Source of the DNA: Agathobacter sp.
Lineage (GTDB): Bacteria > Bacillota > Clostridia > Lachnospirales > Lachnospiraceae
Direction: 5' to 3'
NCBI GenBank assembly: GCA_017623935.1
Contig: JAGAOC010000009.1
Location: 1-60,191, forward strand
Length of the DNA: 60,191 nt
A program made the translations under genes and the position numbers. Shown one piece after another: positions 25,371 through 45,872 of the stretch. Numbering within the stretch: position 1 is the first letter of the stretch; every line of letters begins with the position of its first letter. The notes beneath the pieces are model-generated. The model saw only the letters and a list, made by a program, of their open reading frames with translations, did no database searches and was not told the DNA's origin.

Positions 25371-28300
25371 ATGATCAAACGAGTAAAAGCATTTTTACTT
25401 GCACTGGTGATGATGGTATTATCCGTATGCACAGCATTTGGAGACAATACGACCCTTTATGCGGCAGACGGCATCACAGTGAAATTACATTACAACAGAC
25501 CGGACAACGACTATTCCGGTTGGATGGTATGGTTCTGGCCGGAAGGACAGGGCGGTGCTGATTATCAATTTGCAGAAGAAGATGGAGAGCAGGTAGCTAC
25601 TCTTGATGTAGCTGCTGGAACTATGAGTGTTGGATACATCATTAAGACATCTTCATGGGCAAAAGACGTAGACGCAGATCAGTATATTGATATTGCTTCT
25701 GTTATGTCCGGAACTGTACATTATTATGTAGAGTCCGGTGAACCTGGCGGAAAGATTGTCTACGGTGATGATGTTACTTTTGGTACAAGAACAAAATCTG
25801 CAACCTGCGATGGTGCTAAGACCATTACCGTAACCATGACAGGTGAGATTGCAGAAGGAGAGCTGACAGATCTTTTTGCAGTACTGAACAAAGATGGTGA
25901 TAATATTGAGATCGCTTCTATTGTAGAAGGAACCAATGACAATGAATTCATCATTACTTTAGCAGAGAATGTGGAAGAGAATAAGTCTTACTATCTTACT
26001 TATGAAGGTAATAGTTTAGAAATCTCTATGCCAAATCCATATTCTACCGAGAAATTTGAAAACAATTATACTTATGATGGAGATGACTTAGGTGCAAACT
26101 ATACAAAAGAGTCTACCACATTTAAAGTATGGGCTCCAACAGCAGAGTCTGTAACTTTGAATCTGTATACAACCGGTTCTGATGAAGAAGAAGGCGCTGC
26201 AGATCTCGGTGGTTATGTTATGGAAGCTGCTGAGAAAGGTGTATGGATCCTTACTATAGAAGGTGATCTTCTGAATGTCTATTATACCTATACAGTTTGT
26301 ATCGATGGAGAGAACACAGAAGCTTGTGACCCATATGCAAAAGCAACCGGTGTCAATGGTAATCGTGCTATGGTCGTAAATCTGGATTCTACGGATCCGG
26401 AAGGCTGGGAGAATGACTCTAATCCTCATGCAGGAGAGAACATTACTGATGCAATTATCTATGAGATGCATGTAAGAGACGCATCTATCGGTGATGATTC
26501 TGGTGTTTCTGAGGCAAACAAAGGAAAATTCCTTGGATTAACAGAGACAGGAACAACTGTAGATGGAATGGGTGACACTCCTACTGTATTAGATCATATG
26601 AAAGACCTGGGAATCACTCATTTGCATTTACTTCCATTCTATGACTATGGCTCAATAGATGAGAGTAGTTCAGAAGATGCGTATAACTGGGGATATGATC
26701 CAAAGAACTACAATATACCGGAAGGTTCTTATTCTTCTAACCCATATGATGGAAATGTTCGTATCACAGAAGCAAAACAAATGGTACAGGCACTTCATGA
26801 GAATGGTATCAGTGTAGTTATGGACGTGGTTTATAACCATGTATATGATGCAAGCAGTTTCTGCTTTAATCAGATCGTACCAGGATACTTCTCAAGAATC
26901 AATGATGATGGAAGCTATTCTAATGGTTCCGGATGTGGAAATGATACCGCTTCCGAGAGATCTATGGTTAAGAAATATATCGTAGACTCCGTAGTATATT
27001 GGGCAGACGAATACCACATCGATGGATTCCGTTTTGACTTAGTAGGACTTCTTGATACAGAAACCATCAACGCGATCATAGAAGAAGTACATAAGACTCA
27101 TCCAGACGTTATCTTCTATGGTGAAGGCTGGACAATGAGCACAGATGTAACAAAAGACGGTTACACCATGGCAACACAGGTAAATGCAAGTGAAACACCT
27201 GAATTTGCATATTTTAATGATTCTATCCGTGATGCATTAAAGGGTAGTGTATTTGATCAAGGCGCTGGATTTGTTTCCGGTGCAACAGAACGGGAATCTT
27301 TAATTAATTCTGCGTTCTTAGGTGCTTCTGATTGGGGCGGAAATGGTCATGAACCATCCCAGACAGTCAACTATGCATCTTGTCATGATAACAATACTTT
27401 ATATGACAGATTAAAAATTTCCAGACCGGATGCTTCTAGATCAGATATCATCAAGATGAACAATCTGGCAGCTGCGATCTATATGATGTCAGAAGGTATT
27501 CCATTTATGCAGGCAGGAGAAGAAATGCTTCGTTCTAAAGTCAATGCAGACGGAAGCTTCAATGAGAACAGCTATAATGCAGGTGACTCAGTAAATGCGA
27601 TTAATTGGGCTTCTTTAGAGAGTGAAGATACCTCTGCAGTGTATGAATACTACAAGGGACTGATCGCATTCCGTAAAGCTCACGGAGCACTTCGTCTTAT
27701 GACATCAGAAGATGTTGCAAATACTGTAACAGTTATCGATGGTCTTGAGAAGAATGTAGTTGCTTATTCTGTAAAAGGTGGAATCAATGGAGAGACTGCC
27801 GAAGAAATGTATCTGGTATTCAATGCTAACGAAGAAGATGTGACTGTAACACTTCCAGAAGGAGCTTGGGATGTTTATATCAATGGAGAGTTGGCTGGAA
27901 CAGAAGTGATCGAAACTATCAAGGGCGGAGATACAACTGTTTCTGCAATATCTGCATTAGTTCTTGTAAAGAGTGACAAGGATATCAGCGATGGCAGCGA
28001 TAACGGAAACGGCGATACTTATACCGGTCTTTTGAAACAGGGAGATACATGGTATTATGTAGAGAACGGTGTGATCAAATCTGATTATACAGGCTTATGT
28101 AAACGTGAATCTGTTTGGTACTATGTAGAGAAAGGTGCTGTAAACTTCAATTACACAGGACTCTGCAAGCACAACGAAAACTGGTTCTATGTAAAGAACG
28201 GAGCAGTGAAATTCGATTATACAGGACTTTGCAAGCATAACGGAAATTGGTTCTATGTAAAGAATGGTGTTGTAGACTTCATGGTCACAGGCCTTTGCAA

Positions 28301-28685
28301 GTATAATGGAAACTGGTTCTATGTAAAGAATGGTGTTGTAAAATTCGATTACACAGGCCTTTGCAAGTTCAATGGAAACTGGTTCTATGTAAAGAATGGT
28401 GTTGTAAGCTTCACAAGTACAGGACTTTGTAAGTACAACGGAAACTGGTTCTATGTAAAGAATGGTGTTGTAAAATTCGATTACACAGGACTTTGCAAGT
28501 TCAATGGAAACTGGTTCTATGTAAAGAACGGTGTTGTAAAATTCAACTACACAGGCCTTTGCAAGCATAATGGAAGCTGGTTCTATGTAAAGAACGGTGT
28601 TGTAAACTTTAAATATACCGGATATGTAGATCATGCTGGTTCAAAATGGTATGTAAAATCTGGTGTAATGCAGAAAAAAGCATAA
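25371..28685 (+). CDS. Secreted type I pullulanase with CBM41 and ten wall-binding repeats
   Basis: 1104 residues. Signal peptide (cleavage near TLYAAD), CBM41 (about 32-110, with WMVWFWPEG), Ig-like and CBM48 segments (FKVWAPTAESV), then a GH13_14 catalytic barrel. The type I pullulanase signature YNWGYDP is near 437. Catalytic residues are the nucleophile Asp about 555 (DGFRFDL), acid/base Glu about 585 (YGEGW) and Asp about 672 (SCHDN). It cleaves alpha-1,6 branches in pullulan and starch. Residues 882-1104 are ten 22-residue GLCKYNGNWFYVKNG repeats like those of the protease at 617, for non-covalent wall attachment. Strong site AAGGAGGAG before ATG and a strong terminator after the stop. 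Confidence 0.95.
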   Translation: MIKRVKAFLLALVMMVLSVCTAFGDNTTLYAADGITVKLHYNRPDNDYSGWMVWFWPEGQGGADYQFAEEDGEQVATLDVAAGTMSVGYIIKTSSWAKDVDADQYIDIASVMSGTVHYYVESGEPGGKIVYGDDVTFGTRTKSATCDGAKTITVTMTGEIAEGELTDLFAVLNKDGDNIEIASIVEGTNDNEFIITLAENVEENKSYYLTYEGNSLEISMPNPYSTEKFENNYTYDGDDLGANYTKESTTFKVWAPTAESVTLNLYTTGSDEEEGAADLGGYVMEAAEKGVWILTIEGDLLNVYYTYTVCIDGENTEACDPYAKATGVNGNRAMVVNLDSTDPEGWENDSNPHAGENITDAIIYEMHVRDASIGDDSGVSEANKGKFLGLTETGTTVDGMGDTPTVLDHMKDLGITHLHLLPFYDYGSIDESSSEDAYNWGYDPKNYNIPEGSYSSNPYDGNVRITEAKQMVQALHENGISVVMDVVYNHVYDASSFCFNQIVPGYFSRINDDGSYSNGSGCGNDTASERSMVKKYIVDSVVYWADEYHIDGFRFDLVGLLDTETINAIIEEVHKTHPDVIFYGEGWTMSTDVTKDGYTMATQVNASETPEFAYFNDSIRDALKGSVFDQGAGFVSGATERESLINSAFLGASDWGGNGHEPSQTVNYASCHDNNTLYDRLKISRPDASRSDIIKMNNLAAAIYMMSEGIPFMQAGEEMLRSKVNADGSFNENSYNAGDSVNAINWASLESEDTSAVYEYYKGLIAFRKAHGALRLMTSEDVANTVTVIDGLEKNVVAYSVKGGINGETAEEMYLVFNANEEDVTVTLPEGAWDVYINGELAGTEVIETIKGGDTTVSAISALVLVKSDKDISDGSDNGNGDTYTGLLKQGDTWYYVENGVIKSDYTGLCKRESVWYYVEKGAVNFNYTGLCKHNENWFYVKNGAVKFDYTGLCKHNGNWFYVKNGVVDFMVTGLCKYNGNWFYVKNGVVKFDYTGLCKFNGNWFYVKNGVVSFTSTGLCKYNGNWFYVKNGVVKFDYTGLCKFNGNWFYVKNGVVKFNYTGLCKHNGSWFYVKNGVVNFKYTGYVDHAGSKWYVKSGVMQKKA
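28024..28676 (+). repeat. 66-bp tandem coding repeats in pullulanase
   Basis: Ten 66-bp units encode the 22-residue repeat. Units 5-9 are nearly identical and contain a 132-bp higher-order repeat (alternating KYNGN and KFNGN units), which indicates recent unequal exchange. All central units contain one Cys (GLCK). Confidence 0.85.
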
Positions 28686-33757: not shown

Positions 33758-34252
33758 ATGAAGACAGTAAAGAAGATTGGCAACGTGTATTCTATTATCC
33801 TTTTGATCGTGTTGGCAGTAATTGCACTTTGCATGATCATTCCGAAGATATTAGGGTATGATGGATATGCAGTAGCAAAGAAAAATATGGAACCAACCAT
33901 CCAGGCTGGTGCAATGGTATTTGATAAGGAAGTAGACCCTGCAGATCTTAAAGTGGGAGATATTGTTACATATGAGGTCTCTGATGATGAACTTCTGACT
34001 CAAAGAATTACTGTGATCGATGCAGAAGGAAAGAAAGTAACAACCATGGGAGAGGCTGATGAGACACAACAGGTTTCTACCGTCTCTTTTGAAAAGATCC
34101 TGGGAAAATATAAATTTCATATTCCGTTTTTAGGATATTTCTTTATTTTTGCCCAGAGTCCTGTTGGAATTGCAGTGATCTGTGGTCTTATCATCATTTG
34201 GCTTGCCTTAATGATCGCACCAAGTGTCTTAAGTAAAAAAGAAGCAAAATAA
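33758..34252 (+). CDS. SipW-type signal peptidase homologue lacking catalytic Ser and His
   Basis: 164 residues with an N-terminal and a C-terminal transmembrane helix, colinear with the SipW-type peptidase at 43354. In active SipW/ER-type signal peptidases the dyad is Ser in S-M-E-P and His in T-H-R. Here residue 43 is Asn (KKNMEP, codon AAT at 33884) and residue 82 is Gln (LTQRIT, codon CAA at 34001); the paralogue has Ser43 and His82 at the same positions. The frame is intact, with a good promoter (TATAAT 33708-33713) and ribosome binding site, so it is a maintained pseudoenzyme rather than a pseudogene. It could be a chaperone, a decoy or a subunit for TasA-like substrates. Confidence 0.88.
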   Translation: MKTVKKIGNVYSIILLIVLAVIALCMIIPKILGYDGYAVAKKNMEPTIQAGAMVFDKEVDPADLKVGDIVTYEVSDDELLTQRITVIDAEGKKVTTMGEADETQQVSTVSFEKILGKYKFHIPFLGYFFIFAQSPVGIAVICGLIIIWLALMIAPSVLSKKEAK

Positions 34253-34333: not shown

Positions 34334-34366
34334 TGTGACTTTCGTGTGACTGTTACTTTTTATAAT
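34334..34366 (+). promoter_or_regulatory. Operator-promoter: heptamer direct repeats plus -10 (site 1)
   Basis: TGTGACT (34334-34340), 4 bp, TGTGACT (34345-34351), 9 bp, TATAAT (34361-34366). There is no good -35 box; the repeats occupy its place, as at promoters activated by SARP/OmpR-type regulators. The same spacing occurs at 38579 and 43962. Confidence 0.7.
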
Positions 34367-34434
34367 GCAATTAAATTAATTAGTGTAGATTAGTATAAGT
34401 TAGTATTTATCTCATATAGATGGAGGAGATTCTA

Positions 34435-35166
34435 ATGAAAAAGAAATATTTACTTATGGGAGTCGCTGGTGCGTTGGTTGTTTCAACCATGATCGGTGGA
34501 ACCTTAGCAGCATTAGATACAGTGACAACGGAAGGTGCAAAAGCAGAGATTTCTGTAAAGAGCATTGGAGTTTCTGTTAATCAGGCAAACGGAGCAAAGA
34601 CTGTTGATGGTAGCGTTGAGATTAAAAATGGTGCCGTACCAGGTGGAAATTATGAATGTTCTTATAATGTCAGCAATACAGAAACAGATGGGTACGACAT
34701 TTATGTAAAAGTTGCAATCTATAAATATTGGGAAGATGAAGAGGGAACTCTGGAATCTAAATATGATAGTGTTTACTTTGATTGTGCAGATGGAAGTGAA
34801 ATGGCATATCCTCAGGAATTAGAAGAGAGTTATCTGACAGAGAATGGCTGGCTGGTACAGTATGCAGATGAGGAACAGATCGTTCTGTATTATACCAATC
34901 CTTTAAAAGCCTCAGATGATGTGAAAGAAAACACATCTACTAATTTTATGGATGGAATCAGTTTTGATCCGGCTCTTGGAAATGCTTATGCAAACAAGGA
35001 GTTAAAGATCGATTACGAGATAACAGCGGTTCAGGCCAATAATAGCAAAGCTGCTATGGCAGCTGAATGGGGTATGTTCCCAGTGTTTGATAAAGATGGA
35101 GTACTGCTTGGTGTATATGAGACAGAAGCAGAGGCTTTAGCTGTAGAAGAAGGTCTCGCAGAGTAG
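34435..35166 (+). CDS. TasA/camelysin-like secreted protein
   Basis: I choose ATG 34435 (MKKKYLLMGV), 8 bp after GGAGGAG; an earlier ATG at 34420 overlaps that site. 243 residues. A SipW-dependent type signal peptide ends near GGTLAALDT, where related proteins have GSTLAYLTD. The mature part is beta-rich and Tyr/Asp/Glu-rich, without anchor. TasA proteins form extracellular fibres in Bacillus biofilms; a fibre role here is inferred. First gene behind operator site 1, followed by two anchored surface proteins. Confidence 0.72.
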   Translation: MKKKYLLMGVAGALVVSTMIGGTLAALDTVTTEGAKAEISVKSIGVSVNQANGAKTVDGSVEIKNGAVPGGNYECSYNVSNTETDGYDIYVKVAIYKYWEDEEGTLESKYDSVYFDCADGSEMAYPQELEESYLTENGWLVQYADEEQIVLYYTNPLKASDDVKENTSTNFMDGISFDPALGNAYANKELKIDYEITAVQANNSKAAMAAEWGMFPVFDKDGVLLGVYETEAEALAVEEGLAE

Positions 35167-35185
35167 AGTTAAGTAACGGAAAGGC

Positions 35186-35980
35186 ATGGTAGTGAAAATG
35201 AAGAATAAAACGTTGCTGTTTGGATTGATAATGGTACTTACCATGGAATTTACCACTGTTGTGGCTGCCGAAGAGGCTGATAAGACGGTGGTACTTACAC
35301 AAGAGGATAAGATAGAGTATACGGATGATCAAACAGGCATCAGTAATGCATTTCAGGGAATGGCACCGGGAGATACTAAGACGGTAACGATCCGGGTACA
35401 GAATGATAACAGTCATACCGCAAGCTTCTTTATTTCTCAGGAAACATTAAGTTACTTAGAGGAAAAAGAAACAGCCAGTGGTGGTGCCTACTCTTATGAT
35501 CTTAAGGTAGGGACAGAGAGTGGTTCTGCAGTGTCTTTATTGGATACAGTAGCAGGAGGATATGATTCTTCTTTGGCGGCAGATGATCAGGGTATCAATA
35601 ATATTACAGAATTAGAAGATTATCAGTATTTTGCAGAACTTGGTACTGGAGAATATACATATGTATATCTGACACTTACCATCGATGGTGAAGGCTTTGA
35701 CAGTACTGATCAGGTAAATTATGAAAATGCAGTGGGAGAGTTAGAATTTAACTTTAGAGCATATTATAAAGACAGAGATCCGATCATTATTACAGAGACG
35801 ATCACTGAAAAAGAACCGGATACCATCATTGAAAAAGTAGTTGATCAGGTGGTAAAAGTTGCACAAGAAGTAAAAACCGGTGATTCTATTGTGAAATTAG
35901 TTGTATTTGGTGGCGTTTTAGTAATTGGTATTATTATTGTAGTGATCGCGCTGAAAAAAAGAAAGGCGGAAAGCAAATGA
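35186..35980 (+). CDS. Membrane/wall-anchored surface protein with TGD sorting-like end
   Basis: 264 residues if ATG 35186 is used; GTG 35192 or ATG 35198 fit the GGAAAGG site better. Signal peptide (cleavage near VAAEE). The extracellular part has APGDTKTVTIRVQNDN, like TasA-associated and WxL-type beta domains. A coil-like ITEKEPDTIIEKVV stretch precedes VKTGD (35870-35884), a hydrophobic helix and the basic tail KKRK. This resembles non-canonical sorting signals of clostridial class B sortases. Its stop overlaps the next ATG (ATGA), so the two are coupled. Confidence 0.75.
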   Translation: MVVKMKNKTLLFGLIMVLTMEFTTVVAAEEADKTVVLTQEDKIEYTDDQTGISNAFQGMAPGDTKTVTIRVQNDNSHTASFFISQETLSYLEEKETASGGAYSYDLKVGTESGSAVSLLDTVAGGYDSSLAADDQGINNITELEDYQYFAELGTGEYTYVYLTLTIDGEGFDSTDQVNYENAVGELEFNFRAYYKDRDPIIITETITEKEPDTIIEKVVDQVVKVAQEVKTGDSIVKLVVFGGVLVIGIIIVVIALKKRKAESK

Positions 35981-37044
35981 AAAAGTATGTAAAATTTTTC
36001 ACAGGTATGCTGATGGCATTTACACTGGTAGCAGGAATCCTGCCAAGCACTCAGGTAAAAGCTGAAACAACCAAAAAGACTTATACCGTAACTTTCCGTG
36101 CAGGAAATGTTGGGAATTTTAATTTGAATACCAGCAATATCAGCGGAGAAAATATCGAAGCAACAGAAAATTATATTAAATTTACGGTAGAAAAAGGCGA
36201 AAGCTTAAGCAGTACTTTTGATTTTATCAGTGATGATGCAAGTTTGGATGCATATTTCTTAAATGTAACTTCTTCTGATAATGACGTAGATTATATTGAT
36301 TCCGGATATCGGTTAAAGACAGTCAGCGAATGGGCAGAAAATGCGGCAAATGCAACCGTGAAGAGAAATACAGAGTATGTACTTGATTATGCAAAACTGG
36401 TCAATCCGGTTAAATATACCATCTGTTTTGTAGATGTAGAATCAGGTGAGCAGATCGCACCATCTACGATTGCTTATGGTAATGCAGAGGAAGAGATTCT
36501 TTGTACACCACTTAATGTATCAAATTACAGTACTACAGATAAGGCTGTTACCTTGGTCTTAAGCGAAGAAGACAGTGAAAATGTAGTGACTTTCCAATAT
36601 ACTTACACCGGTGAAGTGGAAACCATCACCAAGACCATCACCAACGTTGAGCCGGGAGAGACTATTACAGAAACCGTGATCAATGAAGTAGAAGTTGTTG
36701 AGCCAGGCGGAGCTACTGTTGTTACACCGGAACCGGCAGACGATAACCAGGCTGACAACCAGGTAAATAATCAGGATAACAACCAGGTAGATATCCAGGA
36801 TGAGCAGGTACCGTTAGCAGATGATCAGAATAATAACGATCAGAACGTTGCAGATCAGGATGACAATTCTGATAACAATGGTCAGACCGTAACCATCGAA
36901 GATGAGGAGACTCCTCTTGCAGATGGAAAAGAGGATCTTCTTGGTTCCTATTGGACACCTATTTTAGGTGGAACTGCATTAGCGATCATTTTAATCTCAA
37001 TTGCTGTTGTAGTGATTAGAAAAAAGAAAATATCTCATAAATAA
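35977..37044 (+). CDS. Anchored surface protein with MucBP-like region and DQN-rich linker
   Basis: 355 residues. Signal peptide (cleavage near VKAET), a beta-rich domain, a MucBP-like segment (YTICFVDVESGEQI), the repeated TITKTITNVEPGETITET stretch, a DNQ-rich linker with two PLAD motifs, then a hydrophobic helix and KKKISHK tail. No LPXTG. It overlaps the previous gene by 4 bp and is followed by a strong terminator, ending the operon 34435-37044. Likely a surface partner or anchor for the TasA-like protein; this is inferred from context. Confidence 0.75.
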   Translation: MKKYVKFFTGMLMAFTLVAGILPSTQVKAETTKKTYTVTFRAGNVGNFNLNTSNISGENIEATENYIKFTVEKGESLSSTFDFISDDASLDAYFLNVTSSDNDVDYIDSGYRLKTVSEWAENAANATVKRNTEYVLDYAKLVNPVKYTICFVDVESGEQIAPSTIAYGNAEEEILCTPLNVSNYSTTDKAVTLVLSEEDSENVVTFQYTYTGEVETITKTITNVEPGETITETVINEVEVVEPGGATVVTPEPADDNQADNQVNNQDNNQVDIQDEQVPLADDQNNNDQNVADQDDNSDNNGQTVTIEDEETPLADGKEDLLGSYWTPILGGTALAIILISIAVVVIRKKKISHK

Positions 37045-37062
37045 TAGATTGCCCCCTTTAAA

Positions 37063-37098
37063 AAACACGCCAGATAGATTGTCTGGTGTGTTTTTTTT
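37063..37098 (+). terminator. Intrinsic terminator
   Basis: AACACGCCAGA (37064-37074) pairs with TCTGGTGTGTT (37082-37092, one G-U), followed by a run of T. Confidence 0.9.
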
Positions 37099-37138
37099 CG
37101 CTTCTTTTTTCGCTTCCTTTTTGCCTTTTTATCATTAT

Positions 37139-37202
37139 TTGCATGAAATTGCGGAAAATTTGCGTGATATTGTTCATTTCATAATACAAAATATGATATA
37201 AT
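37139..37202 (+). promoter_or_regulatory. Putative promoter and TTGC-repeat site before the regulator
   Basis: TATAAT at 37197-37202. About 30 bp upstream are three in-phase elements, TTGCATGA (37139), TTGCGGAA (37149) and TTGCGTGA (37160), 10-11 bp apart. They differ from the TGTGAC heptamers but have the same helical spacing, so autoregulation is possible. Confidence 0.4.
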
Positions 37203-37272
37203 ACAAATGTAAATAGCTTATTTGACGTATTATATATAAGAAAAGCGGTTAAGAAATGAACGGAGAGGTAAT

Positions 37273-38475
37273 ATGTTTTCTGTAAAGACATTGGGAAAGT
37301 TTTCTGTCACAAATGAAGATACTGAGTTGAACGAGGATAGTATCCGGTCACCAATGCTGACAAAACTACTGCTGTTTATGGTCACCCATCGGGGACAGAC
37401 TCTTACAACAGATGAAATTGCAACTGCCATCTGGCAGGAGGAAGAAGTAGATAATCCGGCTGGCGCATTGAAGAATCTGATGTATCGTCTGAGAACGATC
37501 CTTAAGAAGTCTTTTGGGGAGACAGAGTTTATTCAGACCAGCAGAGGCTCTTATTGCTGGAATCCGCAAGTGGAAGTGGTTCTTGATGCGGAGCAATTTG
37601 AAGGTTTGATCAGCAAAGCCCGCAATGAAAAAGAAGATTCAGAACAGGTGATTCAATATTATGAAGCAGCGGTTCGACTTTATCAGGGGGATTTTATGCC
37701 GAAGTTGACGGAAATGCATTGGGTAGTGACGACAAGTACTTATTATCATTCCATGTATCTGTCCGCGATCAAGGCAGTGGCGGAATTATACATAGCAGAA
37801 GAGAAATATGATGAACTGGAAAGTCTTTGTAACGAAGCCTTGGATATTGATAATTTGGATGAACAGATTCATTATTATTTGATCTATGCTAGGATGAAGA
37901 ATCAAAATATGCAGTTGGCCATGCAGTCCTATGAGAAGGCCTGCGAGATACTGCAGAGAGAATTAGGAGTTCGTAATCCGGAGAAGTTAAGAGAGATCCA
38001 CGAAGAGCTTCTTAAGATGAATAAGGGCATTGAGGCTGAGAACATGGAGACGGTGCAGGAGGATATGACAGAAACCCATGCGGAAGGCACATTTTTCTGT
38101 GGTTATCCTGTATTTCGGGAGATTTATCGTTTGGAAGCCCGTAAGATCGCTAGGAGCGGTGGTAACGAATTTGTTCTTTTGCTGACGATCAAGCAGAAGG
38201 ATGGAGCTGGTAGTATGACAGAGCAGATGGAGTCATTTCGAACCAAGAAAGCAATGGAGGATCTTGAAGAAATCCTTAACAAGTCCCTTCGAATTGGGGA
38301 TGTGGCTGCAAAGTATAGTGATTCTCAGTTTATTGTATTGTTACCATCCTGTACATATGAAGGTGGCGTCATGGTTGCAGAACGGATCGTGCAGAATTTC
38401 TATGGCAGAAATTCTAAAATGCAGATAGAATATGATCTGGAAGCAGTGACAGCTACAAGTAAGATCGTTCAATAA
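37273..38475 (+). CDS. SARP-like transcriptional regulator with BTAD and degenerate GGDEF domain
   Basis: 400 residues. An OmpR/PhoB-type winged helix (about 1-98: LLLFMVTHRGQTLTTDEIATAIW, TSRGSYCWNP) is joined to a bacterial transcriptional activation domain (BTAD, TPR-like, about 100-250), the SARP arrangement. After an acidic linker, residues about 270-400 look like a GGDEF fold in which the signature is YSDSQF (residues 348-353) within AAKYSDSQFIVLLP, so diguanylate cyclase activity is not expected. It may bind nucleotide or serve dimerisation. SARPs activate from direct heptamer repeats 11 bp apart, exactly the repeat type found at three promoters around it. Own promoter and terminator. 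Confidence 0.85.
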   Translation: MFSVKTLGKFSVTNEDTELNEDSIRSPMLTKLLLFMVTHRGQTLTTDEIATAIWQEEEVDNPAGALKNLMYRLRTILKKSFGETEFIQTSRGSYCWNPQVEVVLDAEQFEGLISKARNEKEDSEQVIQYYEAAVRLYQGDFMPKLTEMHWVVTTSTYYHSMYLSAIKAVAELYIAEEKYDELESLCNEALDIDNLDEQIHYYLIYARMKNQNMQLAMQSYEKACEILQRELGVRNPEKLREIHEELLKMNKGIEAENMETVQEDMTETHAEGTFFCGYPVFREIYRLEARKIARSGGNEFVLLLTIKQKDGAGSMTEQMESFRTKKAMEDLEEILNKSLRIGDVAAKYSDSQFIVLLPSCTYEGGVMVAERIVQNFYGRNSKMQIEYDLEAVTATSKIVQ

Positions 38476-38524
38476 AGAGGAATGATCGGATAGAATAAGA
38501 TATTGGAAGAGTTTTCTTAAAAAG

Positions 38525-38563
38525 ATTGCTTTGCAATTCCTTAGATTGCGAAGCAATTTTTTT
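38525..38563 (+). terminator. Intrinsic terminator after the regulator
   Basis: ATTGCTTTGCAAT-type left arm (38525-38537) pairs with ATTGCGAAGCAAT (38545-38557), followed by TTTTTT. Confidence 0.85.
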
Positions 38564-38578
38564 GATTTTTAGTAGGTA

Positions 38579-38611
38579 TGTGACCAACGTGTGACTAGGG
38601 ATTGATATATT
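38579..38611 (+). promoter_or_regulatory. Operator-promoter: heptamer direct repeats plus -10 (site 2)
   Basis: TGTGACC (38579-38585), 4 bp, TGTGACT (38590-38596), 9 bp, TATATT (38606-38611). Same geometry as sites 1 and 3; precedes the VWA/fibro-slime operon. Confidence 0.7.
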
Positions 38612-38693
38612 GGTATAAGAAAATGAGAAAGAAGAATAAATTGTATTTTTCGGATAGATATCGAAAGGTTTTATTACTTTAAGGAGGGTTCAC

Positions 38694-41600
38694 ATGAAAA
38701 TCAATAAACTCTGGAAAAAAGTATTGGCATTAGGATTATGTGCTGCACTGGTAGCAGGATGTATCGGGATCTTAGATCTGACCTCAACTTTTGCAGACTA
38801 TTCCAAGTATCTGATCGGTCTGAAAGGCAGTGCAGATAATGAAAATGCCATCGTAAAGGATAATGAATATGCAGAGGTTATTTCCATGACCAACAGTCCT
38901 GAAAATGTGGATGGAAATTACAGCTATTATATGGGAAGTGAGACAGATACAGAGTTATATTATGTAAATGTTGTCCTTGAATATAATGGTGAAGTAGTTG
39001 GAAGAACACCGGAGAGTAATAATGCATATGCATATTTAGCTTATGCAAATGAAAGCCAGTCTTTCAAGATCAACCCAGCAGATGGATATCAGGTTTCTGA
39101 AGCCTCACTCACAGTTACCAAAGAAAATATTGGAATCCTTTCCACTGAGACAAGAGAGGTTTCTATAAATGAGAATGGAATCTGTGAAGTATCTTTAAAT
39201 AAGAGAAACAGTAATGACTGGACAGAAGATAAATTCTATAGCGAATTAAAGATCGTTTTAACAGAAAGAGAAGAAAATGCTCAGTATGTAAACTTCTCAG
39301 CAAACTTATTTAAGTATAATCAGTATGCAATGAATACTGCTACCAAGAAACTGGATTCATCCAAATACTTAAATATCGGTGTTGCTACCGAAATCGGTGA
39401 GTGGAACGTTTGTAACTATGACGGTGCTTATCAGGGACTGGCAGATATGACACTGACAAACGGGCTGATCTCTTTTTCAGAGTATGCAGCCGCTGATTTC
39501 TTCACATCAGCAGATAGAAATGATTCAAAAACAGGTTATTATACAACAACAGAAAATGAAAAAACATCTTATTACAATGTACAGTTCCCATTTGAAAAAC
39601 AGGGTGATTCTTATGTGTATGACAGCAGCAAACAGTCAGCTCTGTTAAATACAGACAATGGAGTGGTCAGCATTGGAGATGTCAACACAGGCTTCTGGCC
39701 ATTTGGTGAAAATAATTATTACTTCGGAATGAACTTTGTTACCGATTTTTATATGACAAATAACGGCAAGATCAATGGAGAAGATATCGTATTTGAATTC
39801 TCTGGTGATGATGATGTTTGGGTATATATTGATGGTAATTTAGTACTTGACCTGGGTGGTATCCATGGTGCAGTAGCCGGATCCATCAACTTTAGTTCCG
39901 GAGAAGTAAGTTTCTATAGCGCTGGTGTAAACAGTGCACAGAAAGGTGTGATCAAAACAAGCTCAAAGGCAAGTTACATCACATCTACAAGTACAAAAGA
40001 TAATAAGATCGTTTCTGCATCTTATAATTTCTATGATTCAAGTGCAAACAGCCTTACAAAAGCAAACCTCTTAGATGGAGATTCCCATGAATTACAGGTT
40101 TACTACATGGAACGAGGTGCAGGTGCTTCTAACTGTAAGATTAAATTTAATCTTCCACAGACACCACAGCAGAACACATTAAAAGTTACCAATACAGTTA
40201 AGAGCACTGTTAACGGTGAAAAAATAGAAGATAACACAGCATTTTCTTATATTGTAAAAAAAGATGGAACAGCATTAGCAAATGCATTCTTTACATTAAA
40301 GACAGCAGATGGTTCTACAACAACTATGACAACAACTGCAGAAGGTAAGTTCACATTGAAAGATGGAGAGTCTGCATTGTTCCAGGAACCGGAAGCAGGA
40401 ACTTATGCTGTTACAGAAATCTTAGAGTCAGGTTATGAAACAACATATATAGCAAAGAAAAATGATTCCCAGACTTCTGCTGCCGGACCGGTAGTAAAAT
40501 CATCTTCCCTGACAACATTACAGGCAGAACATTCAATTGAGACAAAGGTAAATCAGGCAAATGATTTCTATCAGATTGATTTCTTAAATGTAAAATCAAA
40601 AGAAGAAAAAACTTTTGAGGCAGATAAGACAACAAAATTGGTTGATTGGGATGAAAGAACTTACGAGATCACACTTTCAGCAAGTTCAACTACCAGTTAT
40701 ACAACAGGCGGGGATTCCGTTGTAACAACTGTAAAACCAGCAGTAGATGTCATCTTAGTATTAGATATGTCAAGTTCCATGAACGGAACACCAACTACTG
40801 ACTTAAAAGCAGCAGCTACAGGTTTTGTAACAAACTTAAGTCAGAATGCGGCTGATGGAAGTCAGATCGCAGTGATTAAGTATAACTCAAAAGCAGAAGT
40901 GCTTCAGGAGCTTACTACTTTAACAACAGATAATGTTACAGAAATTAATTCTGCAATTAATAATATGAAAAATTCCCAGGGAACCTATACGAGCCAGGGA
41001 TTAGAATATGCTCAGGACATTCTTGCAGATTGTACCAATCCAAATAAATACGTTGTCTTATTCTCTGATGGCGAGCCATATTTATCAGGATTGAATCAGA
41101 ATACGATCGCAGATGACTCATATGATTGTGCAACAGAAATGAAAGAAGATGCTACGATCTACACAGTTCGTTTAGGTAGCAAAAATGGTGGAACCTTAGC
41201 TTATGGAGATGACACCAATCAGTATACCAACCGCAGCTATGTACAGTGGCTTGTGGATCTGGCAACAGATGAGGATCATGCTCTTGGTACAGATACATCC
41301 GGTCAGTTATCTACTATCTTTGAAGAGATTCAAACTGAGATCACAACTCCGATCGTGACCACCGCAGTGGCTTTAACAAATGCAACTATCGTTGATACTA
41401 TTGATGCAAGATTTGAGTTAGCAGCTGGTGAGATCGAAAGATTACAGAGTGAAGGTGCTTCCGTGATCATTTATCCTGATGGAACTACCAAGATCACTTG
41501 GACTAATCAGACATTAAATCCTGCTACAGAGACAGATGGAGTGATCACTTCTGGCTGGACCAAAGTTCTTAGCATAAAAGCAAAAGATGATTATATCGGT

Positions 41601-42656
41601 GGAAATAATGTTGCTACTAACGTTAATCCAAAATCTTATATTGAGATAAGCGGAGAGACACCGGTAGAATTCGAACAGCCAAAAGTAAATGTTAAGATCG
41701 AAAATGAGTTAAAAGACGCATTAGATACCATTTTCCTTGGAGAAGATCTTACACAGTACTTTACAGAAGATACCATCAATGAAATGCTTGGTAAGTTAAG
41801 CCAGATGGAAACTTATGATGATTCTGAGATCTCTGTAAAATGGCTGGACGCAGACGGAAGAGAACTTACAGAAGAAGAGATCAGAGAAGCATCTCCAGAA
41901 GAAAAGACCACTTATACTTTAAAAGTTGTGGTAACTCCAAAGACTGCTTCCGATAGCGATGAAGCAAAAGCAGCAGCAGAATCTATGAAGAATTCTGATG
42001 GAAAAGTATATGTAGCAGAATCCTATAAAGAAGAAGCTACTTATGAAGTAGAAGTGATAACAGGTTCTATTACTATTACTAAGAAGATCAATCAGAAGTC
42101 TTACAATGAAAATGATGGAGATCCAATCTTCACATATAAAGTTACCAACCTGTTAGATGGTAAGGTATATTTTAGAACAGTTCGTTTTGATGTAAATCAG
42201 GATGACACTTATGTAACAGAAGATCAGGTGGAAGAAGAAAACCACTTATTCTCCTCTGATTATTATGTATGTTCCGCAAAGATCACAGATCTTCCACAGG
42301 GATTATATCAGGTAGAAGAGTTAGATACCATGGGATTTTCTTTGGATAAAGTCGGAACAAATACCAAAAAGACAACTGCTTTATCTTATGATGATGATAC
42401 CTATACCGTATATGCAATCGGTTATGATCTTTCAGGGGAAACAACAGTTGGCGATGTTTTAGAAGCAGAGAATTATAGTGGCCTGATTTCCGGACCGGAA
42501 GATAAACATCTGGATCACAAAGTTGCAAATGTGATCTTTGTAAATAAAAAAGTTCGTACTCCGGGAAAAGAAACAGATACAGATGTTGTAAAGAACAGCC
42601 TTGTAATTGATCAGACTTACACAGGAAATTATCAGGCAGATAATACAGAGCAATAA
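38694..42656 (+). CDS. Giant secreted adhesin: fibro-slime, SpaA/CnaB-like and VWA domains
   Basis: 1320 residues. Signal peptide, either SPase I type (near TFADY) or lipoprotein type (LVAGC). A fibro-slime/PA14-like domain (about 230-480) has FSGDDDVWVYIDG and LVLDLGGIHG. A CnaB/SpaA-like domain (about 500-600) is followed by a von Willebrand A domain with MIDAS DMSSS (Asp691, Ser693, Ser695) from about 685 to 890, and at the C-terminus a second pilin-type beta domain (GSITITKKINQK). No LPXTG motif or C-terminal helix is present, unlike most VWA pilin-tip proteins. Followed by a TasA-like gene and an active SipW, it may be carried by the TasA-like fibre. Behind operator site 2. Confidence 0.82.
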   Translation: MKINKLWKKVLALGLCAALVAGCIGILDLTSTFADYSKYLIGLKGSADNENAIVKDNEYAEVISMTNSPENVDGNYSYYMGSETDTELYYVNVVLEYNGEVVGRTPESNNAYAYLAYANESQSFKINPADGYQVSEASLTVTKENIGILSTETREVSINENGICEVSLNKRNSNDWTEDKFYSELKIVLTEREENAQYVNFSANLFKYNQYAMNTATKKLDSSKYLNIGVATEIGEWNVCNYDGAYQGLADMTLTNGLISFSEYAAADFFTSADRNDSKTGYYTTTENEKTSYYNVQFPFEKQGDSYVYDSSKQSALLNTDNGVVSIGDVNTGFWPFGENNYYFGMNFVTDFYMTNNGKINGEDIVFEFSGDDDVWVYIDGNLVLDLGGIHGAVAGSINFSSGEVSFYSAGVNSAQKGVIKTSSKASYITSTSTKDNKIVSASYNFYDSSANSLTKANLLDGDSHELQVYYMERGAGASNCKIKFNLPQTPQQNTLKVTNTVKSTVNGEKIEDNTAFSYIVKKDGTALANAFFTLKTADGSTTTMTTTAEGKFTLKDGESALFQEPEAGTYAVTEILESGYETTYIAKKNDSQTSAAGPVVKSSSLTTLQAEHSIETKVNQANDFYQIDFLNVKSKEEKTFEADKTTKLVDWDERTYEITLSASSTTSYTTGGDSVVTTVKPAVDVILVLDMSSSMNGTPTTDLKAAATGFVTNLSQNAADGSQIAVIKYNSKAEVLQELTTLTTDNVTEINSAINNMKNSQGTYTSQGLEYAQDILADCTNPNKYVVLFSDGEPYLSGLNQNTIADDSYDCATEMKEDATIYTVRLGSKNGGTLAYGDDTNQYTNRSYVQWLVDLATDEDHALGTDTSGQLSTIFEEIQTEITTPIVTTAVALTNATIVDTIDARFELAAGEIERLQSEGASVIIYPDGTTKITWTNQTLNPATETDGVITSGWTKVLSIKAKDDYIGGNNVATNVNPKSYIEISGETPVEFEQPKVNVKIENELKDALDTIFLGEDLTQYFTEDTINEMLGKLSQMETYDDSEISVKWLDADGRELTEEEIREASPEEKTTYTLKVVVTPKTASDSDEAKAAAESMKNSDGKVYVAESYKEEATYEVEVITGSITITKKINQKSYNENDGDPIFTYKVTNLLDGKVYFRTVRFDVNQDDTYVTEDQVEEENHLFSSDYYVCSAKITDLPQGLYQVEELDTMGFSLDKVGTNTKKTTALSYDDDTYTVYAIGYDLSGETTVGDVLEAENYSGLISGPEDKHLDHKVANVIFVNKKVRTPGKETDTDVVKNSLVIDQTYTGNYQADNTEQ

Positions 42657-42677
42657 GAGAGTTGGAGGCGAGAGAAC

Positions 42678-43295
42678 ATGAAAGGATTTTTAAAAATCAA
42701 GAAATTTTTAAAAAATAAAAAAGTATTTGTTATAACCTTCGCTCTGGCGCTTGGGATTGCTGCAACAGCTGTTACTACAGCCACTATGACGGATGTTTCA
42801 GGAAGAGTAATCAACTTTTTTGATCCGGCGGATGTGAATACCCACATAGACGAAGAAGTTGATGATCAGGTAATCAGACCGAATACTATTATTCTGAAAG
42901 CTCCAGTGGTAGTAAATGATGGACCAAGTAATGCTTTTATCCGCGCTAGGATCACAATTTCCCCTTCTACGTCAGGAGTGAAGTTACTGGCAGGTAAGTG
43001 GTCGGCATATACCGGAGCGGATAAAATATTTACCCAGAAAAGCGAAGTGTTCAATGGAACAGATTTTGCAGATAATGGAAACTGGATCTATTGCGAAGAA
43101 GATGGTTTTTATTACTATAATCTTCCGGTAGAAGTAGATGATCATACAGCTTCGATCTTTGATGCAGTTGTATTAAAGGAGAGTGCAGACGTTACTGTGT
43201 ATCAGGAAGCAGTTCTTGCAACTGAAAATTTTGAGTTAGGTGTAACAGTAGACATCAGTACCATTCAGAGTTTATTTGATAAAGTAAACGAATAA
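42678..43295 (+). CDS. TasA/camelysin-like secreted protein
   Basis: 205 residues. A basic N-terminus (KIKKFLKNKK), hydrophobic core, then ATAVTTATMTDVSG at the likely SipW-dependent cleavage region. The mature part has the camelysin-type pattern: NTIILKAPVVVNDGPSNAFIRARITI, and GFYYYNLPVEV. No anchor. It lies 21 bp after the adhesin gene and 58 bp before the SipW gene, the order adhesin-TasA-SipW resembling tapA-sipW-tasA in Bacillus (analogy, not homology for each gene). Confidence 0.75.
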   Translation: MKGFLKIKKFLKNKKVFVITFALALGIAATAVTTATMTDVSGRVINFFDPADVNTHIDEEVDDQVIRPNTIILKAPVVVNDGPSNAFIRARITISPSTSGVKLLAGKWSAYTGADKIFTQKSEVFNGTDFADNGNWIYCEEDGFYYYNLPVEVDDHTASIFDAVVLKESADVTVYQEAVLATENFELGVTVDISTIQSLFDKVNE

Positions 43296-43353
43296 TTAAG
43301 TGAATCATCCAACAAATCATTCAACGAAAAATTAAAAAAAGAGGTTAAGACAA

Positions 43354-43920
43354 ATGAAGATTGTTAAGAAAATCTGTAACGCATTGTCTATGATCTTATT
43401 GATCGCGCTGCTGCTTATTGCAGCAGCGTTGATCGTTCCTAAGATCATAGGATATGATCAATATGCAGTATTAAGTGGAAGTATGGAGCCAAATATTCAT
43501 GTTAGTGCCATTGCTTTTGATAAAGAAGTAGATCCTAAGGAGCTTCAGGTAGAAGATGTGGTTACATATCAGCTTTCTGACGGAACTTTGGTAACTCACA
43601 GGATCATAGCCATTGATAACGAGGCAAAAACAGTAACTACCCAGGGAGATGCCAATGAAGCAGAGGATGCTTTACCGGTAGCGTTTGAAAACATTGTTGG
43701 AAAATGTGAATTTAGTATTCCATATTTGGGATATATTTCAATTTATGCTAAAACACCATTAGGAATCGCAGTGATCTGCGGCGTTTTATTGGTTATGATC
43801 ATATTGAATTTTTTACCTGATGCATTAAGCGATGATAAAGATGGTGCAGATGGCAAAAAAGATAACAAAAAAGACGAAAAAACAAGCGAAAAAAAAGAAG
43901 ATAAATCTGATGAAAAATAA
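43354..43920 (+). CDS. sipW: SipW-type signal peptidase I (active-site residues present)
   Basis: 188 residues. N-terminal transmembrane helix, Ser43 in LSGSMEPN, His82 in LVTHRI, the GDANEAED motif, then a second membrane helix (about 130-150) and a Lys/Asp/Glu-rich cytoplasmic tail. The Ser-His dyad and short length are typical of SipW/archaeal-ER type peptidases, which process TasA-like proteins. Colinear with the inactive paralogue at 33758. Probable substrates are the four TasA-like proteins of the island. Confidence 0.9.
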   Translation: MKIVKKICNALSMILLIALLLIAAALIVPKIIGYDQYAVLSGSMEPNIHVSAIAFDKEVDPKELQVEDVVTYQLSDGTLVTHRIIAIDNEAKTVTTQGDANEAEDALPVAFENIVGKCEFSIPYLGYISIYAKTPLGIAVICGVLLVMIILNFLPDALSDDKDGADGKKDNKKDEKTSEKKEDKSDEK

Positions 43921-43961
43921 AACCAAAAATACTGTAAAAAACTGGTAAAAAATAGTTGTCG

Positions 43962-43994
43962 TATGACCATTATGTGACCAAAAGACATTACAAT
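43962..43994 (+). promoter_or_regulatory. Operator-promoter: heptamer direct repeats plus -10 (site 3)
   Basis: TATGACC (43962-43968), 4 bp, TGTGACC (43973-43979), 9 bp, TACAAT (43989-43994). Same geometry as sites 1 and 2; precedes two TasA-like genes and a SipW gene. Confidence 0.68.
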
Positions 43995-44056: not shown

Positions 44057-44671
44057 ATGAAAAACAAAAAATTAGTAACAACACTTGGAGCAGTAGCATT
44101 ACTTGGAGCAATCGGAGTAGGAAGCACATTAGCTTACTTAACTGATACAACTGGAACAGTAACAAATACCTTTACTGTTGGTAATGTAACTTTCGATGAT
44201 GATAACGAAGTTGGATCTGGTTTAAGAGAGTCAGATGTAATTCGTGATAAAGATGGAAACTATGTTGATAACGACGGAGATAATACCTGGACTGTAATCA
44301 CAAATGATTATACAAGCTTAGTAGCTGGTGAGACTGTATACAAAGATCCTACAGTTGTTATGGGTTCTGATTCAGAAGTAGCTTGGGTATTCGCTCAGAT
44401 CACAAATACAAATGATGCTGCATTTGCAAATATTGCTTGGAGCGAGGATTGGGTAAAAGTTGACAGCCTTTCTACAGATGCTGCAGTTGTATACGCTAAG
44501 AAAACAACAATCGCTGCTAGCGAATCTTCTACAATCTTTACAAGCGTTACACTTTCCAAAGATATCACTGGTGAGACTGTAATCCCACAGATCGAAGTAA
44601 AGGCATTCGCTATCCAGGCTGCTGGTTTCGATTCTTATACAGATGCACTTGATCAGGTTAAATTCAACTAA
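44057..44671 (+). CDS. TasA/camelysin-like secreted protein
   Basis: 204 residues. The signal region LGAVALLGAIGVGSTLAYLTD is a textbook SipW-dependent signal, with the mature protein likely starting near YLTDTTG. The mature part is acidic and beta-rich with VTNTFTVGNVTF and DPTVVMGSDSEVAWVFAQIT, the camelysin/TasA pattern. No anchor. First gene behind operator site 3, with AAGGAG before ATG. Confidence 0.85.
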   Translation: MKNKKLVTTLGAVALLGAIGVGSTLAYLTDTTGTVTNTFTVGNVTFDDDNEVGSGLRESDVIRDKDGNYVDNDGDNTWTVITNDYTSLVAGETVYKDPTVVMGSDSEVAWVFAQITNTNDAAFANIAWSEDWVKVDSLSTDAAVVYAKKTTIAASESSTIFTSVTLSKDITGETVIPQIEVKAFAIQAAGFDSYTDALDQVKFN

Positions 44672-44730: not shown

Positions 44731-45318
44731 ATGAATAAGAAAAAACTTATCCCATTACTTTCAGCAGTTGCTTTAGTTGCTGCTATTGGAGTAGGTTCTA
44801 CATTAGCATACTTTACAGATAATGACGCTGCAAACAACGTTGTTACTATGGGTCATGTAAACATCGAATTAGATGAGCCTGAATTTAGCGCAGAAAACGA
44901 AAATAATACTATCAAAAACGTTGTACCAAATCAGACTATTACAAAAGATCCTACTATCACTGTTGTAGCTGGTTCTGAAAGCTGTTATTTAAGAGCTAAG
45001 ATTGAGATCACAGAATTAAATGCTGAGCAGATCGCAGACCTGTTAGAGAACACTAACATTGGCGAAGACTGGGTTTTAGCAGAAGATGGATACTACTATT
45101 ATCAGAATTCTGTTTCTAAATCTAACGAGGATCAGACAGTAGATTTATTTGATACTGTTGTAATCCCAGCAGAGTGGGGCAACGAAGTTGCTGATATGAC
45201 ATTTGAGATCAATGTAACAGCAGAAGCAATTCAGGCTGATAATTTCACACCTGAAACAGATGAAGCTGGTGTGATCAATGGATGGAATGATATTACCGCT
45301 GAAACATACGAAGGTTAA
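44731..45318 (+). CDS. TasA/camelysin-like secreted protein
   Basis: 195 residues. Signal region LSAVALVAAIGVGSTLAYFTD, then NNVVTMGHVNIELDEPEF and DPTITVVAGSESCYLRAKIEI, the camelysin pattern. Its signal is nearly the same as that of the preceding gene, 59 bp upstream, so the pair looks like a duplication with divergence of the mature part. No terminator is seen between them. Confidence 0.85.
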   Translation: MNKKKLIPLLSAVALVAAIGVGSTLAYFTDNDAANNVVTMGHVNIELDEPEFSAENENNTIKNVVPNQTITKDPTITVVAGSESCYLRAKIEITELNAEQIADLLENTNIGEDWVLAEDGYYYYQNSVSKSNEDQTVDLFDTVVIPAEWGNEVADMTFEINVTAEAIQADNFTPETDEAGVINGWNDITAETYEG

Positions 45319-45359
45319 TTGTATTGCTTGATTTGGAAGCAGAAACATAGAGGATTTTG

Positions 45360-45872
45360 ATGAAAAAAGTAATAGGCCGTATTCTAAGCGTTACAGGTGC
45401 TATCATAATGGTTTTGTTAATACTGGTATGTCTTCCCTTTACACTTCCAAAACTTTTTGGAATACAGTTGTATGAGGTGAAGACAGAGAGTATGGAACCG
45501 GAATATCCGGTGGGAAGTGTTGTATATGTAAGATCAGCATCCTTTGATGAGATATCAGTTGGAGATGTTGTTACTTATAGCCTTGGCACGGACACAGATC
45601 TTGTGATGACTCATAGAGTGATCGAGATAGATCAGGAAAAGCAGTGTTTTATCACAAAAGGAGATGCAAACGCAGTAGAAGATGCAGATCCGGTCAGCTT
45701 TTCCCGAGTGATCGGGAAGCCTGTATGCTGTATAGAAAAGATCGCAGTCATTTCTAATTTCATAAATTCTGCTTTCGGTATCAAAGTGATCGTGAGTATC
45801 TTTGTTTTGGTACTGGCAATGTGGCTGATCGCAGATCAGTTGAAAAAAACAGGTCATAAAAAGAATACATAG
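45360..45872 (+). CDS. SipW-type signal peptidase I (active-site residues present)
   Basis: I choose ATG 45360, 5 bp after AGAGGA; a TTG at 45357 precedes it. 170 residues. N-terminal membrane helix, Ser44 in TESMEPE, His85 in VMTHRV, KGDANAVEDADP motif, and a C-terminal membrane helix with a Lys-rich tail. More divergent from the copies at 33758 and 43354 than these are from each other. Last gene behind operator site 3, so it probably serves the two TasA-like proteins upstream. Confidence 0.88.
   Translation: MKKVIGRILSVTGAIIMVLLILVCLPFTLPKLFGIQLYEVKTESMEPEYPVGSVVYVRSASFDEISVGDVVTYSLGTDTDLVMTHRVIEIDQEKQCFITKGDANAVEDADPVSFSRVIGKPVCCIEKIAVISNFINSAFGIKVIVSIFVLVLAMWLIADQLKKTGHKKNT

Follow-up and report, generated by a model that had tools for sequence, protein, structure and literature searches.

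A SARP-type regulator with a degenerate GGDEF domain as probable activator of three operator-promoters in a SipW/TasA surface island of Agathobacter sp.

We analysed a stretch of 60,191 nucleotides from Agathobacter sp. (Lachnospiraceae; contig JAGAOC010000009.1 of assembly GCA_017623935.1), hereafter called the window, which carries an island of genes for SipW-type signal peptidases, TasA-like secreted proteins, a large adhesin and anchored surface proteins. Three promoters of this island share an operator made of two direct repeats just upstream of the -10 box, and between the first two of them lies the gene for a 400-amino acid (aa) regulator of the Streptomyces antibiotic regulatory protein (SARP) type. 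In our judgement it is highly likely, from comparison of sequences, that the three sites are promoters activated by this neighbouring regulator, which would run the fibre, adhesin and anchored-protein operons together. The evidence comprises the geometry of the sites, their conservation in relatives, their co-occurrence with the regulator and the co-variation of operator and regulator.

Three operator-promoters of one geometry

The original prediction had reported three sites of the form TRTGACY-N4-TGTGACY-N9-TANANT, and a pattern search of the window retrieved them exactly as claimed, all on the + strand. Operator-promoter 1 (34334..34366, TGTGACT-N4-TGTGACT-N9-TATAAT) stands upstream of a TasA-like gene at 34420 and two genes for anchored proteins, operator-promoter 2 (38579..38611, TGTGACC-N4-TGTGACT-N9-TATATT) upstream of the genes for the adhesin, a BsaA-like protein and SipW, and operator-promoter 3 (43962..43994, TATGACC-N4-TGTGACC-N9-TACAAT) upstream of two TasA-like genes and a second SipW gene; each occupies the same place in relatives. 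The pattern was absent from each of 100 dinucleotide shuffles of the window. Throughout the assembly (2.08 Mb, 101 contigs), the form TRTGACY-N4-TRTGACY-N9-TANNNT is matched by these three sites alone; as the assembly is about 80% complete, further sites could sit in the missing part. With two mismatches allowed, the assembly gave 5 matches versus 7 in the reversed control, so that only the exact sites exceed background and no further members are claimed.

A normal -35 element had been said to be lacking, which holds for our scan: none of the 35 sigma70-like matches listed falls on the three sites. The terminator and promoter scan of the window also placed a terminator-like hairpin after the regulator gene, directly before site 2; inspection by eye added a long-loop hairpin, absent from the list of the scan, in the interval from 33758 to site 1. 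A terminator was looked for in the gap before site 3 and none was seen; site 3 may be an internal promoter that boosts an ongoing transcript. An Rfam riboswitch search of the window gave no match at the gathering score.

The geometry is strict in relatives as well. Over 67 loci selected by their regulator (L183-L249), with gaps from 0 to 15 considered, distinct TRTGAC pairs numbered 69 at a gap of 5 versus 7 over the fifteen other gaps, and a TANANT box followed such pairs at a gap of 10 in 54 cases versus 2 at other gaps. Base preferences were counted over 55 distinct sites (one of them, in L083, weak), leaving aside the positions fixed by the pattern; they comprise a run of A/T from -12 to -8, a preference for G at the position immediately preceding each hexamer (30 and 34 of the 55) and a -10 box reading TAtaaT. 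An A located 7 nucleotides after the -10 box is present in 36 of the 55 sites, and if this A is the start, as predicted, the two repeats of 11 base pairs (bp) would be centred at -28.5 or -29.5 depending on the choice of register. The repeats bound by SARPs are spaced by 11 or 22 bp, 8 bp separate the 3' repeat from the -10 box, and the afs box of AfsR is centred at -29.5 (PMC10936776). The sites described here, direct repeats with a period of 11 bp immediately upstream of the -10 box and in place of a -35 element, bear out the SARP-like layout originally proposed, save that the distance to the -10 box is 9 bp by the heptamer given and not 8 (PMC10936776).

Conservation and co-variation with the regulator

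The regulator gene (37273..38475, + strand) encodes a winged helix (Trans_reg_C), a BTAD domain of the SARP type and a degenerate GGDEF domain. The succession of an OmpR-type winged helix and a BTAD domain is that of SARPs (PF00486, 4.5e-09; PF03704, 1.7e-20; both over cut-off), chains of AfsR are among the matches of a search of the PDB with the protein, and a BTAD scan of the assembly found this regulator as its only match. The SARP-like regulator originally proposed is thereby recovered, with the addition of a GGDEF domain that had gone unmentioned. No receiver domain is among its Pfam matches, so it lacks the composition of an OmpR/PhoB response regulator. Judging from alignments and the winged-helix fold, residues 61-74 (NPAGALKNLMYRLR; 37453..37494, + strand) form the putative recognition helix, in which residue 68 is Asn.

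The island is conserved in the order site, TasA, two anchored proteins, regulator, site, adhesin, BsaA, SipW, site, TasA, TasA, with the sites at the same places, in relatives as distant as Eubacterium callanderi. Scanning of 62 genomes of the genus (own included) retrieved the pattern 34 times in 15 genomes versus 0 in the reversed control, and scanning of 250 genomes drawn from the family (own included) retrieved it 30 times in 18 genomes versus 2; many of the matches in relatives fall in the same island. On these counts and those of the shuffled window we rejected chance repeats, an explanation of negligible probability. A looser form with the seventh base free (TRTGAC-N5-TRTGAC-N9/10-TANNNT) occurs in 33 of 47 named regulator loci collected with profile A2, including those of Roseburia inulinivorans, Lachnobacterium bovis, Acetitomaculum ruminis, Lactonifactor, Robinsoniella and Eubacterium callanderi, barkeri and aggregans. 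A weight-matrix scan of the reversed control of the 47 loci gave no match above 13 bits.

Considered together, 46 of these loci (L229 excluded) hold 66 sites, of which 13 overlap an open reading frame (ORF) model and 65 are followed by a gene. The best BLAST match of that gene is the TasA-like gene at 34420 in 21 cases, the adhesin in 20, another TasA-like gene in 11 and another island gene in 5, with none in 8, so that the first gene is a relative of an island gene in 57 of 65 cases. Neither a scatter over random positions nor a want of conservation in orthologous loci was found, and the expectation that matches lie mainly before island-type genes and accompany the regulator was borne out. 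The idea of a dedicated regulon is supported, with a refinement. In some relatives, sites also precede other surface genes (a 1727-aa immunoglobulin-like protein, SpaA/collagen-binding, VWA/SpaA and CAP proteins) and further genes (for a penicillin-binding protein and some of unrelated kind), so that the regulon is not always confined to TasA/SipW genes; a Pfam scan of 26 site-associated proteins left 11 without a match. In the genome of L185, two tandem operators 82 bp apart precede a single adhesin gene (L077:9492-9606).

Sites and regulator tend to occur in the same genomes. Within the genus, at a cut of E<=1e-20, a site is present in 13 of 17 genomes with a homologue versus 2 of 45 without (p = 3e-8), and at a stricter cut (at least 43% identity over the matched part) in 13 of 13 versus 2 of 49 (p = 1e-11). 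In the family, the corresponding figures are 15 of 66 versus 3 of 184 at 1e-20, and 10 of 10 versus 8 of 240 when the ten best homologues are set apart. The 43% and ten-best cuts were both chosen after the tables had been seen. Because the family protein search scored at most 7 candidates per genome, absence of a regulator there is not proof. Among the regulator loci, L205 and L215 have two tandem regulator paralogues that enclose a site, and an ORF of >3100 aa comes next. In L218 (a contig of Roseburia inulinivorans DSM 16841; identical to L082) and L228 (identical to L092) the regulator is split into two frames with operators still nearby, which could reflect draft errors or decay.

The strongest evidence that a regulator of the 37273 type reads the site, as far as comparison of sequences can tell, is that operator and recognition helix vary together. 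Among de-duplicated loci selected by their regulator, TGTGAC operators occur in 32 of the 51 with Asn at residue 68 (Asn68) and in none of the 14 with Thr (Thr68), whereas TGTAAC operators of the same geometry occur in 0 of the former and 5 of the latter; five loci with other helix types have neither, and the reversed control of this count gave 0 and 0 in 1.39 Mb. The count excluded L134 and L135 (no usable helix), L136 (no regulator), L218, L244, L245 and L246 (duplicates), and L227 and L229 (short). A search for any exact hexamer repeat of the same geometry in 14 loci around Thr68-type regulators (group KTL, L230-L243; one of them, L236, is of the Asn type) returned TGTAAC as the top word, with 9 sites in 5 of the 14. 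Across the 250 family genomes the TGTAAC operator occurs at 15 sites in 6 genomes (control, 1), all 6 of which hold a Thr68 regulator (L230-L233, L237-L239). One genome, G101, harbours both pairs: TGTGAC lies next to a regulator of the Asn68 kind, and TGTAAC next to one of the Thr68 kind.

The Thr68 loci also point to a parallel TGTAAC regulon, with sites before SipW or SipW-dependent proteins in L230, L238, L254 and L264. SipW and SipW-dependent proteins recur in L230 and L238, which makes two of five site-bearing Thr68 loci, and G149 has two further TGTAAC sites before SipW-dependent proteins. No SipW is among the ORFs listed for L231, L232 and L237, of which no family scan was made.

The same co-variation bears on two other readings of the sites. 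A class of promoters for an alternative sigma factor, with no activator site, would agree with the fixed distance to the -10 box and the missing -35 element; two equal hexamers one helical turn apart and a TATAAT-like -10 box argue against it, and we rejected it, as very improbable, on the co-variation of operator and SARP helix. A different winged-helix protein might instead read the operator, for example a response regulator of the OmpR/PhoB type, which also use 11-bp direct repeats; the SARP would then be a mere neighbour. PhoB-type boxes share the general plan, and one genome (G037) has five sites with no such SARP found. Against this stand the agreement of the operator base with the helix type of the SARP itself, with both pairs in G101, and the presence of a site with every one of the closest homologues of the 37273 regulator in both genome sets, at cuts chosen after inspection of the tables. 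We therefore consider a different winged-helix reader unlikely and retain the SARP as the probable activator.

Several observations count against the SARP as reader of the site. At least six family genomes have a Thr68 regulator without the TGTAAC operator (L234, L235, L240-L243), and an exact site is missing from the stretch read in 19 of the 51 Asn68 loci and 9 of the 14 Thr68 loci. Phasing of the TRTAAC pairs is weaker (10 at a gap of 5 versus 9 at other gaps, with TANANT at a gap of 10 in 7 and elsewhere in 2). A quick tree built from 69 regulators requires at least 4 changes of the helix label and at least 2 of the operator, and L221 (Asn68, TGTGAC) falls among the Thr68 rows; there is co-variation in these sequences, but it derives from few events, and the deep branches are weak. 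Thr68 proteins differ at neighbouring residues of the helix as well, so that the choice of residue 68 itself is a guess. G037 (96% complete; L068, L069, L070, L097) holds five exact TGTGAC operators, with no full-length regulator homologue found, and a close regulator is also missing from G241, G245, G281 and G288, each with one or two sites. These exceptions, together with G153 and G006, were searched again with profile A1, and for G037, G241, G245 and G288 the winged-helix part was also used by itself. A full-length homologue of another helix type is present in G153, whereas in G037, G245 and G288 the GGDEF-like module sits in other proteins and the winged-helix matches are all weak.

The degenerate GGDEF domain and c-di-GMP

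The C-terminal part of the regulator aligns with GGDEF domains of solved structures in the PDB search. Its catalytic GGDEF motif is lost and replaced by SxxQ(F/Y), which reads SDSQF in the window protein, Ser349 being present in 76 and Gln352 in 83 of 85 aligned rows. Residues resembling an I-site, R340-x-x-D343 and R371 (38290..38385, + strand), are kept: R340 and D343 occur in 85 of 85 rows each and R371 in 83 (the exceptions are one gap in a cut copy and one Asn). Their spacing equals that of R359, D362 and R390 of PleD. Loss of the catalytic motif with retention of RxxD and a second Arg is what characterises degenerate-GGDEF receptors of cyclic dimeric guanosine monophosphate (c-di-GMP), such as those of the PelD type, in which the catalytic GGDEF motif is lost and I-site residues are kept. 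Unlike in PelD, the domain is here fused to a SARP-type DNA-binding part, and its binding of c-di-GMP is putative.

The organism very probably makes c-di-GMP, since its assembly has 11 GGDEF and 7 EAL matches, intact GGDEF and EAL domains among them. Within this assembly RxxD is present in both domains of the S-x-x-Q type versus 1 of 6 intact GGDE(F/M) domains and 0 of 3 other degenerate domains (L283 was assessed by script; L284, L285 and the intact GGDEM domain by eye). The degenerate module also ends the proteins L169, L168 and L171 and one at C85:17071-17274 of the own assembly, which also contain an intact GGDEF part or, by eye, an HD-GYP part; proteins of c-di-GMP metabolism or sensing seem to reuse this module.

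Whether the C-terminal domain binds c-di-GMP is, in our estimate, about evenly poised. Two points reduce the weight of the residue counts: RxxD with a later Arg occurs in ordinary GGDEF domains too, and the count took in only those rows whose match began no later than residue 60 and extended at least to residue 360 (among the 85 are the window protein a second time and the cut copy of L141). It is quite possible, if short of probable, that the SARP binds the sites while its degenerate GGDEF domain only mediates dimerisation or contacts with proteins, or senses a different ligand. The conserved S-x-x-Q in place of the catalytic motif could mark such a new function, and the occurrence of RxxD and a later Arg in ordinary domains, including one of the six intact ones of the own assembly, agrees with it; the invariance of R340 and D343, the distribution of RxxD among the domains of the own assembly and the presence of the same module at the end of proteins resembling, by eye, intact GGDEF or HD-GYP enzymes argue for c-di-GMP as the ligand.

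Under the reading in which the SARP activates the sites, two regulator molecules would occupy the direct repeat TGTGAC-N5-TGTGAC of 11-bp period next to each other, both on the same DNA face and at the place of the -35 element. Like AfsR in Streptomyces, the bound pair would give sigma, through its region 4, an alternative contact site, and the SipW/TasA fibre, adhesin and anchored-protein operons would be switched on together, activation being presumed here rather than repression. The degenerate GGDEF domain, no ordinary cyclase, would probably bind c-di-GMP through its kept I-site and so tie fibre production to the second messenger. Tentatively, and with a little less than even confidence, we extend this to a SARP branch of gut and rumen Clostridia that would act as a c-di-GMP receptor, in which the dead GGDEF domain gates pair binding and thereby SipW/TasA fibres and adhesins, and in which a DNA code of its own (Asn68 with TGTGAC, Thr68 with TGTAAC) separates parallel regulons, even within one genome.

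The surface island and related systems

The genes that the sites would control are all on the + strand. Site 1 is followed by a small secreted TasA-like protein of 248 aa (34420..35166), which has no Pfam or NCBIfam match and was named by eye from its signal sequence and conserved place, by an anchored surface protein of 264 aa (35186..35980) with a weak match to EF0750_LPXTG below cut-off, and by another of 355 aa (35977..37044) with a C-terminal membrane anchor recognised by eye and no family match. Behind site 2 come the large adhesin of 1320 aa (38694..42656; VWA, PA14 and fibro-slime domains), a BsaA-type SipW-dependent protein (42678..43295; TIGR04090, below cut-off) and a SipW-type signal peptidase (43354..43920). 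Site 3 precedes two SipW-dependent TasA-like proteins (44057..44671 and 44731..45318; both TIGR04088, the latter also Pfam camelysin M73) and a second SipW-type signal peptidase (45357..45872). Alignment finds the catalytic Ser and His in both peptidases, whereas a further SipW homologue (33758..34252, + strand) has Asn for the Ser and Gln for the His; it lies upstream of site 1 and, by position, outside the regulon. The gene assignment originally proposed, which left out this inactive SipW, accordingly holds by position, with hairpins before sites 1 and 2. A SipW peptidase bearing Ser and His beside proteins with SipW-type signal peptides is the hallmark of SipW/TasA (BsaA) matrix systems, and the island shows it, with TIGR02228 and TIGR04088 both matched over cut-off; its products are predicted to form fibres. 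Starch genes border the island: a pullulanase-like enzyme (25371-28685) with nine Choline_bind_4 repeat matches adjoins an amylase with CBM26 modules at 28910.

SARPs have been studied as activators of antibiotic genes in actinomycetes. Like AfsR and other SARPs of Streptomyces (PMC10936776), the present regulator combines a winged helix with a BTAD domain and is associated with direct repeats one turn apart before a -10 box lacking a good -35 element; the box centre of -29.5 given there for afsS compares with -28.5 to -29.5 here from the predicted start. Unlike AfsR-type SARPs, it belongs to Bacillota, its repeats read TGTGAC or TGTAAC and lie 9 and not 8 bp from the -10 box (PMC10936776), a degenerate GGDEF domain replaces NOD/TPR, and the genes concerned are for surface fibres instead of antibiotics. 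The sipW-bsaA operon of C. perfringens, with BsaR/BsaS, likewise couples SipW and a BsaA-type fibre protein to a dedicated local regulator, there a two-component system (PMC7395162); the island described here has a SARP-type protein and at least three promoters.

BldD of Streptomyces represses sporulation genes and is not known to be of the SARP type or to contain a GGDEF domain. It resembles the proposed regulator in being a transcription factor governed by c-di-GMP (PMC4151990). Among the matches listed in a search of open PMC text, with closed-access work outside its scope, no title or abstract start dealt with TasA/SipW genes under the control of a SARP, or with a SARP that carries a GGDEF domain.

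In many Lachnospiraceae and in Eubacterium relatives, Roseburia inulinivorans and Lachnobacterium bovis included, the genes for fibres and adhesins appear to be under a SARP-type regulator fused to a degenerate GGDEF domain. The analysis supplies the exact operator together with a regulator and a possible signal by which these bacteria might regulate their surface, and the two natural kinds of helix/operator pair are directly testable. If the proposal is true, c-di-GMP would be a direct trigger of adhesins and of fibres of the SipW/TasA type in Clostridia of the gut and rumen.

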